Origin: Costertonia aggregata | GTDB lineage: Bacteria; Bacteroidota; Bacteroidia; Flavobacteriales; Flavobacteriaceae | Direction: 5' to 3' | Length of the DNA: 64,000 nucleotides | NCBI RefSeq assembly: GCF_013402795.1 | Contig: NZ_CP058595.1 | Coordinates: 717,501 to 781,500, forward strand | Shown: piece after piece, positions 29,582 through 39,304 of the stretch | How the letters are laid out: each line of letters starts with the position of its first letter | How positions within the stretch are numbered: position 1 is the first letter of the stretch | Made by a program: the position numbers and the translations under genes | Notes under the pieces: generated by a model | Told to the model about the DNA's origin: nothing | Seen by the model: the letters and a program-made list of their open reading frames with translations, nothing else | The model's database searches: none

Positions 29582-32500
29582 TCAACTCTCAACTATATTC
29601 GGTGCCAGCCATTTCATAGCGTCTTCCAGGGCTATTCCTTTTCGTTCGGCATAATCTTTTACTTGATCTTCTTCTATTTTACCCAATCCGAAATAACGGG
29701 CTTTGGGGTTGGCAAAATAATAACCTGAAACCGAAGCTGCCGGCCACATGGCCAAACTCTCGGTTAATTTTACGCCTATTTTTTCTTCCACTCCGAGAAT
29801 TTCCCAAATGGTCAATTTCTCCAAATGATCGGGACAAGCAGGATAACCTGGTGCTGGGCGAATTCCCTTATACGACTCGTTGATCAATTCTTCATTGCTT
29901 AAATCTTCGTTCGCTGCATAACCCCAATATTTTGTCCGCACTTCCTTATGCAAGTATTCGGCAAAAGCTTCGGCCAAACGATCGGCTAGGGCTTTTATCA
30001 TTATCGAACTGTAATCATCCAAATCTTTTTCGTAAGCTGCCGCTAATTCAGCAGTTCCAAATCCGGTTGATACACAAAAACAACCGATATAGTCTTGTTT
30101 GCCCGAATCTTTGGGAGCGATAAAATCGGCCAAGGCATAGTCGGGTATCCCCTCTCTACGTTGCAATTGTTGGCGAAGGGTACGGAAAGCCCCCCCCGCC
30201 CCCAAAGGGGAAGCTAACAACCGATCGTGTATCTGCTCTAGTACCTCTTCGAGATTACCTAAAACTTCGTTGTTCGTAAAACGAATTACACGATAGCCTT
30301 GCTCTTCGAGCCATGCCGTTCGTTCTTCATCGCTTTTTTTGTTCTCTGGCAATTGGTGGATGCTACCATCGATCTCAACGATCAAATTTTGTTTGAGACA
30401 AACAAAGTCGGCAATGAATTCGCCAATAATATGTTGACGGCGAAACTTATATCCATCTAAATTCTTGCCACTCAAGGCATTCCAAAGCATTTCTTCCGCT
30501 TCGGTAGGTCGATTACGCATGTTTTTAGCGTGCTCTTTCAGTAATCCGTAGAGCATAGGGTTTGCCGTCGCCCAATATTGCTCCCCCTTTGGGGGCGGGG
30601 GGGCTACTTCAATGTCATCATCATTGACAGTGTTGGCCGGAAACAAGCCAAAAATTCCTTTGGCCTGTAACTGTTTTTCCTGCAACACTTTTTTCAACAT
30701 GGCTTGGGCATCTTCGAACAACTCGGTCGCTTGAGCACCCACCACATTATCGGTCAAAATATCAGGATATTTTCCGTGGAGTTCCCAGCTTCTGAAAAAA
30801 GGTGTCCAGTCAATAAAATCAACCAGTTTTTCCAAATCGAGATTTTCAATTATTTGAATACCGAGTTCGTTAGGTTCCTTAATTTGAGCTGAGTCCCAAT
30901 CTATCTTGAATTTATTTTTCCGAGCTTCCTCTATGGATTTATATTCTTTTTTAACGGAACGTTTCAAGAATTTATCCCGAAACACATCGTAATCTTCCTT
31001 AATGGATTTTTTATAAGCGTCCGAGGTTTCTTTTTGTAGCAAGTCGCCGACCACGGTAACCGCACGTGAAGCATCATTGACATGAACGACGGCTTGGCTG
31101 TATTGAGGGTCAATTTTAACGGCCGTATGTGCCTTACTGGTGGTGGCCCCTCCTATCAATAACGGAACCTTAAAGTTCTGGCGTTCCATTTCTTTGGCAA
31201 GGTGCACCATTTCATCAAGGGATGGCGTAATCAATCCGCTTAGGCCGATGACATCTACATTATGTTCTATGGCCGATGCGATAATTTTTTCAGGCGGTAC
31301 CATCACGCCCAAATCGACGATTTCATAATTATTGCAAGCTAGCACTACGCTCACGATGTTTTTGCCAATATCGTGAACATCTCCCTTAACAGTGGCCATT
31401 AAAATTTTTCCAGCTCCAGCCCCCCCCGCCCCCAAAGGGGGAGCTATTAACTGGGCATGAATTTTTTCTAAAACCGCTTCTAGGTTGGTCAACACCTCAT
31501 TATTAGTAAAACGAATAACCTTATATCCTTGTTCTTCGAGCCAGGCTGTTCGTTCTTCATCAATCTTTCTATTCTCAGGTAGTTGATGAATGCTACCATC
31601 AATCTCGACAATCAAGTTCTGTTTTAGGCAAACAAAGTCTGTAATGAATTCGCCGATAATATGTTGACGACGAAACTTATATCCATCCAAATTCTTACCG
31701 CTCAAGGCATTCCAAAGCATTTTTTCCGCTTCGGTAGGCCGGTTACGCATTTTTCTAGCGTGCTCTTTCAGTAATCCATAGAGAACAGGATTTGCCGTCT
31801 TCCAATGAAGCTCCCCCTTTGGGGGTTGGGGGGCTGATTTTTTTTTCTCCTCTTCTATATATGGAAGAAGATACGCCACCGCCTTTTTCATTACCCTTGC
31901 CGATTTTACCACTTGGGGCAAAAACATTTTTCCGCTTCCGAAAAGGTCGCCAACGACGTTCATTCCCGTCATCAGATGGCCTTCGATAACCTCAATGGGT
32001 TTGGCGGAAGCTTTTCTCGCTTCTTCTACATCTTCTACAATATATTGGTCGATGCCCTTTACCAAAGCTCTGGTAATTCTATCTTGAAGCGGTGCTGATC
32101 GCCACGATAGATCGACCTTGCTTTCCTTGGCTTTTCCTACCACCGATTCGGCGAAATCCAACAATCTCTCAGTGGCATCGTCACGGCGGTTGAGCATCAC
32201 GTCTTCGACACGTTCCAATAAATCTTTCGGAATATCGTCATACACTTCCAACATCGTCGGGTTGACAATGCCCATGTTCATTCCCGCTCTAATGGCATGA
32301 TATAAAAAAACGGAATGCATTGCTTCCCGCACGGGATTATTCCCTCGGAAAGAAAAAGAAATATTGCTAACTCCCCCGCTCACACTGCAATGCGGTAGGT
32401 TTTCACGCACCCATTTTGTTGCATTTATGAAATCAAGCGCATTCAGTTTGTGCTCGTCCATTCCTGTAGCGACCGGAAAAATATTGAGGTCAAAAATGAT

Positions 32501-33061
32501 ATCTTCAGGAGGGAAACCTACTCTATTGACCAGAATGTTATACGAACGTTTCGAAATTTCGATTCGCCTGTCATAATTATCGGCTTGACCGACCTCATCA
32601 AAGGCCATAACTATAACCGCAGCTCCATATCTCTTTATGAGTTTCGCATGACGGATAAATTCATCTTCACCTTCTTTAAGACTTATAGAATTGACCACGC
32701 ATTTGCCTTGCACGACTTGAAGTCCGGCCTCAATAATTTCCCATTTTGAACTATCGATCATAATGGGCACTCGAGCAATATCGGGTTCGGCAATGACTAG
32801 ATTTAAAAACTTGACCATGGCCTCTTTGCCATCGATCAAGCCGTCATCCATATTGATATCGATGATTTGGGCGCCTCCTTCGACCTGATGGCGTGCGACA
32901 TCAAGTGCTTCCTCGAATTTTTCCTCCTTAATAAGTCTGAGAAATTTTTTGGACCCGGCCACGTTGGTACGTTCCCCCACATTGATGAAATTACTTTCTG
33001 GGGTGACCACAAGAGGTTCCAGTCCAGATAATTTCAAATATTTCGGTTTTGCTTCAATCAT
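29582..33061 (-). CDS. metH: methionine synthase, cobalamin-dependent, large subunit (pterin, B12 and activation domains) with two in-frame DUF559 inserts
   Basis: A 1159-residue protein; without the two inserts it would be about 880, the usual size of the second half of a split MetH. The pterin-binding domain (about 20-280) starts [16 protein letters not shown]. The cap of the B12 region (about 310-405) is followed by insert 1 (about 409-548). The cobalamin domain contains [14 protein letters not shown] (B12-ligand His in DxHxxG). The activation domain follows with [12 protein letters not shown], then insert 2 (about 819-958), FRTLRQQ and [15 protein letters not shown]. It transfers methyl from methyl-THF via cobalamin to homocysteine, whose binding domain is on the separate upstream gene. 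Both inserts lie between or at the edge of domains and keep the frame. The stop codon lies in a GTTGAGAGTTGATGG repeat. Confidence 0.93.
30188..30605 (-). mobile_element. in-frame DUF559 insertion element, copy 2 (in MetH activation domain)
   Basis: The sequence between the outermost matched bases is 418 bp. The ends are imperfect inverted repeats: AGC, seven C, G, five C, AAA, GGGG A AGCT at 30188-30215, and GCT, five C, TTT, five G, C, seven G, CT at 30580-30605. The interior encodes about 115 residues of a DUF559/very-short-patch-repair-like nuclease domain: [51 protein letters not shown] and [12 protein letters not shown]. The likely catalytic Asp (DFVC) and Glu/Asp (EIDG) are intact. The element has no stop in this frame, so the host protein is read through, and the inverted repeats are translated as PPPPKGE and PLGAGGA. 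It separates DDDIEV from FRTLRQQ of MetH. Confidence 0.85.
31418..31835 (-). mobile_element. in-frame DUF559 insertion element, copy 1 (before MetH cobalamin domain)
   Basis: This has the same size (418 bp between outermost matched bases), orientation, reading frame and structure as the copy at 30188-30605. The inverted ends are at 31418-31445 and 31809-31835 and differ only at a CG/AA position and in homopolymer length. The encoded domain is nearly the same: [38 protein letters not shown] and [13 protein letters not shown]. It differs by scattered substitutions, so the copies are not a very recent duplication. It sits between IEEEKKKSA and [16 protein letters not shown], exactly at the linker preceding the B12 domain. 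No target duplication is obvious. Confidence 0.85.
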
Positions 33062-33064
33062 CTA

Positions 33065-34066
33065 TTAAATTTCAACTATCAGTGCTCGCGGATCATACTG
33101 TTTTACCAAATCGGCTATTGCCATAATATGTTCGGGAGTCGTTCCACAACATCCGCCGACGATATTGACCAATCCTTTTTCGACGTATTCCTTTATCTGT
33201 GCAGCCATTTGCTCAGGTGTTTCATCATATTCGCCAAAAGCGTTCGGTAAGCCCGCATTAGGGTGGGCAGAGATAAAGTGTTCCGATTTTTTAGAAATTA
33301 CTTCCAAATGAGGAACCAATTGACTGGCGCCCAACGCACAATTAAAGCCAACGGACAAAATCGGAATATGGGAAATAGAAATCAAAAAAGCTTCGGCGGT
33401 TTGCCCGGAAAGGGTTCTGCCTGAAGCATCGGTAATCGTACCACTTACCATAATTGGCACGTCTATATTCCGTTCTTCCTTGACCTCCTCAATGGCAAAA
33501 AGAGCGGCTTTTGCATTTAAGGTGTCAAATATGGTTTCAACCAGCAGCATATCGGCTCCGCCATCCAACAACGCCTCTGCCTGTTGTTTATAGGCGATAC
33601 GAAGTTCGTCGAACGAAATGGCCCGAAAACCAGGATCGTTCACATCCGGAGACATACTTGCGGTCTTGTTTGTAGGCCCCATACTGCCTGCTACAAATCT
33701 TGGCTTATGCGGTTCTTTTGCCGTGAATTCATCAGCGACTTTTTTGGCAATCTTGGCGGATTCGTAGTTGAGTTCGTAGACCAATTCTTCCATATGGTAA
33801 TCGGCCATGGCTATGGTCGTTCCTGAAAAGGTGTTGGTTTCGACAATGTCAGCTCCTGCCGCAAAATACTTTCGATGGACTTCGGCGATCGCTTCCGGCT
33901 GGGTCAACGACAACAAATCATTGTTTCCCTGCAGCGGATGTTCCCAATCCTTAAAACGCTCCCCACGAAAGTCTCCCTCGGTAAACTTATAGCGCTGTAA
34001 CATGGTTCCCATGGCGCCATCAAGTACCAAAATTCTTTCTTTCAATATATCCTTAATATTTAGCAT
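33065..34066 (-). CDS. homocysteine S-methyltransferase domain protein (first half of a split MetH)
   Basis: A 333-residue protein equal to the homocysteine-binding domain of Met[14 protein letters not shown] is near the start, VETNTFSGT near 76 and FNCALGA near 230. The zinc ligands are that Cys and the pair in [14 protein letters not shown] near 308. It ends 3 bases before the start of the large subunit gene, so the two parts are translated in tandem and probably form one enzyme. The split is common in Flavobacteriia and is not a frameshift artefact, because each piece has complete domains and its own start. A SAM-I riboswitch lies 80 bases upstream of its start. Confidence 0.93.
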
Positions 34067-39245: not shown

Positions 39246-39304
39246 AAGCCCCCCCAACATACCACGTCTGAATAATAATTACCGCTTCGGGGGTTAGGGG
39301 GCTT
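39246..39304. repeat. short palindromic element with DUF559-element-like ends
   Basis: A 59-bp element with arms AAGCCCCCCCAAC (39246-39258) and GTTAGGGGGCTT (39293-39304). The right end (on the minus strand AAGCCCCC, TAAC, CCCCG, AAG) resembles the outer part of the inverted repeats of the DUF559 elements in metH2. Its last bases are the first two bases of the cysN stop codon TAA. It may also act as a terminator or a stem at the cysN mRNA end. Confidence 0.6.

Follow-up and report, generated by a model that had tools for sequence, protein, structure and literature searches.

The prevailing view of homing endonucleases is that self-splicing frees them to invade conserved genes (PMC3943268). 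I-Bth0305I is a homing endonuclease of the group I intron type and possesses added DNA-binding parts (PMC3943268). Rickettsia palindromic elements are mobile palindromic repeats that are found in frame within many unrelated protein genes (PMC10969869). The locus described here lies within a stretch of 64,000 nucleotides of the Costertonia aggregata genome (the window), where two copies of a nuclease-encoding unit are located in frame within the methionine synthase gene metH. No description of such elements was found in a search of the open-access full-text literature, and priority is thus not certain.

The metH open reading frame (29582-33061, minus strand) encodes 1159 residues, is open throughout and includes pterin-binding, B12-binding and activation domains, with both elements inside it. 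The gene is present as a single copy in the genome and is split, since the homocysteine-binding N-terminal part of methionine synthase is encoded by a separate reading frame of its own (33065-34066, minus strand). The order of Pfam domains is Pterin_bind, B12-binding_2, DUF559, B12-binding, DUF559 and Met_synt_B12, with DUF559 matched over two stretches (E 8e-74, above the curated PF04480 cut-off). Element 1 is a 418 nt block at MetH site 1 (31418-31835, minus strand), in the linker joining B12-binding_2 to B12-binding, and its DUF559 nuclease domain (31448-31768, minus strand) corresponds to MetH residues 432-538. Its 5' terminal repeat (31809-31835, minus strand; AGCCCCCCAACCCCCAAAGGGGGAGCT) is translated into a linker ending in APQPPKGE and its 3' terminal repeat (31418-31445, minus strand; AGCTCCCCCTTTGGGGGCGGGGGGGGCT) into the linker PPLGAGGA. 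Element 2, likewise of 418 nt, is found at MetH site 2 (30188-30605), in the linker that precedes the activation domain Met_synt_B12, with its nuclease domain at 30218-30538 and terminal repeats at 30579-30605 (5', translated as PPPPKGE) and 30188-30215 (3', translated as SPLGAGGA), all on the minus strand. The units start with AGCCCCCC and finish with GGGGGGCT. An earlier note on this DNA had described two 418-bp blocks in the same orientation and frame, bounded by imperfect inverted repeats within a metH that still encodes 1159 residues, and all of this is borne out, the repeats being 24-27 nt in length with 92-96% complementarity.

The two blocks, which share strand and frame, align with zero gaps and are identical at 345 of 418 positions (82.5%), and their differences are mainly in third codon positions (12, 11 and 50 for the first, second and third positions). 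For this pair dN is 0.057 and dS is about 1.9, which is saturated. Within the terminal repeats only one of 18 third positions has changed, against 49 of 122 in the core (Fisher p 0.003), although the core is itself near synonymous saturation. Whilst the net length of an insert had been expected to be a multiple of three, 418 is not (1 mod 3), and the frame is kept intact because each block displaces a piece of native linker and is not a clean addition. The alignment to the nearest insert-free MetH (from G322, 86.6% identity over 909 aa) has the native linkers LLNPQVGDTEG and YQSQY..EKKHL replaced by the window blocks. A structure model of the whole MetH is of low confidence (pLDDT 71, pTM 0.38) and was used solely to note that low-confidence linkers flank the inserts.

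A nuclease within an essential gene resembles the layout of an intein or an intron, and the inverted ends could pair in RNA, such that the inserts might represent an unrecognised self-splicing sequence, protein or RNA, that is removed before the enzyme works. This explanation is most improbable. The splicing blocks of inteins (an N-terminal Cys/Ser/Thr nucleophile; a C-terminal HN followed by Cys/Ser/Thr) are absent from the junctions and Pfam detects no Hint domain, in agreement with the first reading of the sequence. Similarly, no Rfam family is matched at threshold and no group I or group II catalytic RNA structure was found by Rfam; the one sub-threshold match, to suhB (window 31806-31853, on an element end; 26.6 bits vs a cut-off of 41), is a chance similarity to a GC-rich hairpin. 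Moreover, every insertion preserves the frame at each of its ends and is free of stop codons, which an intron would not need, and the junction positions are variable and located in dispensable linkers.

Insert-free versions of the gene are abundant among relatives. Among 86 genomes of the family in which metH is matched, 83 are without an insert at site 1, which is filled only in the window genome, G015 and G437, and in the remaining genomes that were read both sites hold short variable linkers. The possibility that the inserts are ancestral MetH domains, named at the outset as what a general absence of such homologues would mean, is thereby rejected. A genome of the Flavobacterium group (G252) is also filled at site 1, whilst its 29 closest congeners are all empty (87-91% DNA identity over the query). 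The G252 element displaces about 21 nt of linker (AGDKQGN) and no target-site duplication is visible in this one close comparison of a filled and an empty allele. Terminal inverted repeats are a feature of the DDE/HUH insertion sequences and MITEs, but the target-site duplication of those elements is not seen here; the replacement of some 20-25 nt of linker with no visible duplication is easier to reconcile with break repair than with a DDE transposase of the cut-and-paste kind. The co-existence among relatives of filled and empty versions of one site is, on the other hand, what is found with homing endonuclease genes. A check for co-conversion in one filled allele gave, over 30 nt, a higher divergence for the right flank (0.20 vs 0.08) and no clear picture for the left, and this single case was not used as evidence. 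A Flavobacterium-like filled metH is also found on a contig assigned to a Candidatus Nitrotoga metagenome-assembled genome (CALQCV020000062.1), an assignment that is probably a binning error.

The predicted nuclease is small, at about 110 aa, and its AlphaFold model has a pLDDT of 84. The nearest solved structures identified by Foldseek are 3hrl (the putative endonuclease NGO0050, E 1e-7) and 3r3p, followed by Vsr; the match to 3r3p, the catalytic domain of I-Bth0305I, has a probability of 1.00 and a TM score of 0.75 by target length. Sequence profiles also match 3hrl (2e-29) and 3r3p (3.7e-7), whilst the match to NCBIfam NF007294 is below its cut-off. The catalytic-type residues E, D, E and D are kept in all 71 profile-found copies, a count restricted to these because the peptide pattern by which the other copies were found itself requires two of the four residues. 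The model and the alignments thus point to a fold of the homing endonuclease type with an intact active site. For close pairs of elements dN/dS is 0.03-0.2, with dS near saturation for several of the pairs, and the nuclease reading frame is under strong purifying selection. The frame can outlive the nuclease, however, since the LeuRS gene of one genome (G002, L028) contains a decayed DUF559 insert in which catalytic residues are lost and the gene frame is intact.

These elements are not confined to metH. The window genome (3.91 Mb) carries one further DUF559 element, the third, within the reading frame of its LeuRS gene, which is itself single copy. A survey of 398 genomes of the order gave 140 DUF559 matches, of which 46, as counted from the table, are part of open frames of at least 230 aa; a few of these 46 are remote DUF559-like domains of other architectures. 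Across the phylum, DUF559 is found in 162 of 396 genomes, with about a third of the copies among the matches listed being in long frames. A search of the genome and its relatives for other genes carrying the element, as had been proposed, found it in frame in many and not only as a free-standing gene: more than 25 other enzyme genes in the Bacteroidota, many of them essential, contain in-frame copies, the hosts having been identified by direct reading or Pfam confirmation. Several sites are used in MetH (three) and in LeuRS, IleRS, MetRS and UvrA (two each). Further hosts are ValRS, RecG, HemD, AroC, MazG and an ArgB-like amino-acid kinase, together with UDP-GlcNAc 2-epimerase, DegT aminotransferase, adenine deaminase and aldehyde dehydrogenase-MaoC. 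The element also occurs in a UvrD/AddA-type helicase, RNase H and an M23 peptidase, as well as in HsdR, HsdM and Eco57I-type and N6/N4 methylases. Terminal fusions are found at the C-terminus of HisD and IspG and at the N-terminus of HisF, HemF and IspF, and these protein-end fusions, a few of the hosts, may represent a looser kind of association than the internal copies do. The same arrangement is present in dozens of independent assemblies, several of them of named isolates, and assembly error, which the earlier note had held up as a danger, is therefore rejected. Named and cultured strains with the element in MetH include Winogradskyella sediminis DSM 28134, Flavobacterium cucumis DSM 18830 and Salegentibacter holothuriorum DSM 23405. 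The window elements belong to a phylum-wide class in the Bacteroidota.

Other in-frame domains were encountered alongside these. An Eco57I-like restriction-modification enzyme (L312, G410:C2:95500-103500; a reading frame of 1210 aa) contains an in-frame domain of the Y1-type (RAYT-like) transposases, which adds another type of mobile domain inserted in frame. The N-terminus of HemF carries in-frame Y1 transposase fusions in two genera (L313 from G036 and L314 from G115) and DUF559 elements in four other genomes (L326, L327, L328 and L330), and is thus a shared hot spot.

The ends of the elements were compared by aligning the left flank locally with the reverse-complemented right flank, and a score of at least 13 was taken as a match. 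Such a match is obtained with an element's own ends in 68 of 150 elements, as opposed to 5.7% when ends are taken from different elements and 0.13% after shuffling, from which it follows that the ends match within an element and vary between elements. Chance is excluded as the source of the inverted ends in the window, as only 0.13% of the shuffled controls are as good. One element (L155) has ends that match over 64 nt with a score of 61; strong matching ends are no longer present in over half of the elements, and those of RecG have lost them (0/6). Matching inverted ends are also found with 23 of 44 free-standing DUF559 copies in the Bacteroidota, and therefore the unit consists of the ends together with the nuclease, whether in frame or not.

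Ends of this type could alternatively belong to non-autonomous, MITE- or REP-like repeats that are moved in trans by some other transposase, with DUF559 as a passenger placed in frame by chance and selection. GC-rich hairpin repeats do occur on their own in the window genome, some host genes have a repeat but no nuclease (site 2 of the G015 MetH, L018, and the G282 MetH), and Y1 transposases of the RAYT type are present in 25 of the 34 element-bearing genomes. The explanation is nevertheless unlikely. The Y1 transposase that is associated with REP/RAYT systems (Y1_Tnp) is absent from the other nine of the 34, including the complete single-contig genomes G023 and G066, and RAYT/REP as the necessary mover is rejected for this quarter of the element-bearing genomes. 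Moreover, a passenger has no need of invariant DUF559 catalytic residues or of strong purifying selection, and the solo repeats of the window genome amount to just a handful.

Amongst the solo repeats of the window genome, one is within the hisH frame (L318, 3780000-3782200; peptide ..FSPPIPEGRVK..) with no nuclease. Others of the end type lie at 2305000-2307200 (L317), where an acetylornithine carbamoyltransferase-like gene has one at its C-terminus and argB has one at its N-terminus (HLPLGEAGRG). A further repeat resembling one element end is located at window 39282-39303 (contig 756782-756803), outside the surrounding long reading frames. In the G015 metH, from another genus, site 2 is occupied in frame by a repeat-like peptide of a different kind, RHAKLDSASQ, and this linker thus seems to take unrelated insertions.

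The history of the elements was followed with a tree of 150 elements and 111 columns in which many forks are unresolved. Insertion site clusters strongly on the tree (45 label changes vs 92.8 when shuffled, 0/200) and the clustering spans genera and families. The RecG elements form one clade with a host/element correlation of 0.73 and look to be vertically inherited. Other sites tell a different story: the LeuRS genes of two congeners (G248 and G273) are 92% identical whereas their elements are only 54% identical, with different ends, and between the window genome and G322 the corresponding values for LeuRS are 87% and 58%. Site-specific clades with a history that is partly independent of the host gene are also characteristic of homing endonucleases. 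For MetH, the host genes of Marivirga and the Flavobacteriaceae are 58-60% identical and the elements 69-70%. In none of the bootstrap element trees (0%) do the Flavobacteriaceae group as a single clade, but an AU test does not reject such a clade for the MetH elements (p 0.10), and hence a cross-order transfer of the MetH element into Marivirga is suggested, not claimed.

Both MetH sites are filled in the window genome and in a Flavobacterium metagenome-assembled genome (L122), and in each case the two copies are sisters (98/85 and 95/92, respectively). The choice between two insertions and an older duplication, previously left open, can be narrowed to this extent: the window copies are sisters and old (dS about 1.9), so that site 2 was most likely filled from site 1 inside the same MetH gene, apparently twice independently. 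On the same tree two AddA-like copies are nearest to a LeuRS copy. A very recent jump has not been observed, as no two sites were found to hold near-identical copies. Viral contigs and phages provide remote relatives only (at most 44% identity) and plasmids no close relative (best 54%), and neither a viral nor a plasmid origin was retained. Overall, the phylogeny is suggestive of both transposition and homing to fixed sites.

The strong purifying selection, the long persistence in RecG and the retention of the frame over long periods could also be taken to mean that the nuclease is a beneficial domain, recruited for host defence, repair or regulation, and not selfish. We regard this as improbable, as the presence of the insert is patchy with sister species that are insert-free, the same domain is found in more than 25 unrelated enzymes, and congeners hold different elements at the same site. 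No PADLOC model is matched, and a defence system was not retained as a candidate; the decayed LeuRS copy of G002, moreover, has lost catalytic residues with the gene intact.

It is quite probable, instead, that the window blocks are copies of a mobile element that homes and is also copied ectopically, with its nuclease produced as a domain that the host enzyme keeps permanently. The earlier proposal of a mobile, nuclease-carrying, read-through element with ends that act as linkers is supported in this respect, with mobility itself, nuclease activity, homing and translation as a single chain being steps that we infer. The unit would comprise one DUF559 nuclease frame, of the Vsr / PD-(D/E)XK fold, flanked by terminal inverted repeats. 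Residing in frame, the nuclease would be translated together with the host enzyme as an additional domain, the repeats would act as Pro/Gly-rich linkers within a tolerant inter-domain linker, and it is this location in tolerant linkers that would make splicing unnecessary. Expressed from the host gene promoter, the nuclease is envisaged to cut an unoccupied allele within the linker, and the break would then be repaired by copying in the element, which is homing as carried out by inteins and homing-endonuclease introns. On rarer occasions the end repeats may permit copying to a new place, for which the candidate cases are MetH site 1 to site 2 and LeuRS to the AddA-like helicase. The element would be hard to lose because imprecise deletion in an essential gene is presumably lethal.

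On balance, the elements appear to represent a new class of mobile element, namely a minimal autonomous nuclease of the Vsr fold between inverted repeats, about 420 bp in total, that homes and jumps and persists unspliced in essential enzymes throughout the phylum. In effect this is the strategy of the intein with the choice of tolerant linkers in place of self-splicing. Unspliced nuclease elements in LeuRS, IleRS, MetH, RecG, UvrA and other core genes would be another way to inhabit essential genes. They also amount to a natural, repeated domain-insertion experiment on which enzyme linkers accept a folded insert of 140 residues, a possible route to multi-domain proteins via selfish DNA and a source of compact nucleases for characterisation. 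For annotation, an 'endonuclease domain' and an 'aminoacyl-tRNA synthetase' in a single chain probably do not constitute a functional fusion.

In comparison with the known systems, the DUF559 units share their catalytic-domain fold with I-Bth0305I (3r3p), an EDxHD or Vsr-like homing endonuclease, and the EDxHD enzymes likewise place a nuclease at fixed sites in conserved genes, with a patchy distribution and empty alleles. Unlike I-Bth0305I, the units have no intron, have terminal inverted repeats and have a domain that is predicted to stay in the host protein. Most characterised homing endonucleases have an extra DNA-binding region, whereas none is obvious in the DUF559 nuclease. Inteins with homing endonuclease domains are similarly in-frame nucleases of conserved, often essential single-copy genes and form site-specific clades, but the DUF559 units lack a splicing domain or motifs, occupy a tolerant linker and are predicted to stay part of the protein. 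Rickettsia palindromic elements share in-frame insertion into many protein genes, yet their roughly 150 bp code for a short peptide, whereas the units described here are of about 420-460 bp, carry a conserved nuclease, in the window a predicted folded domain within 418 bp, and occur in another phylum. Short GC-rich hairpin repeats and some solo copies are held in common with REP/RAYT systems and MITEs, from which the DUF559 units differ in having a nuclease of a different fold between the repeats and in the lack of a visible target duplication. Free-standing DUF559 proteins (PRK09767-like, PF04480) have the same domain with its own start and stop, in contrast to the read-through into host domains at both ends. 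Inteins, introns, Rickettsia palindromic elements and REP/RAYT systems each have a defining feature that the DUF559 units do not display, and the closest likeness is to the Rickettsia palindromic elements in life style, to inteins in strategy and to I-Bth0305I in fold.
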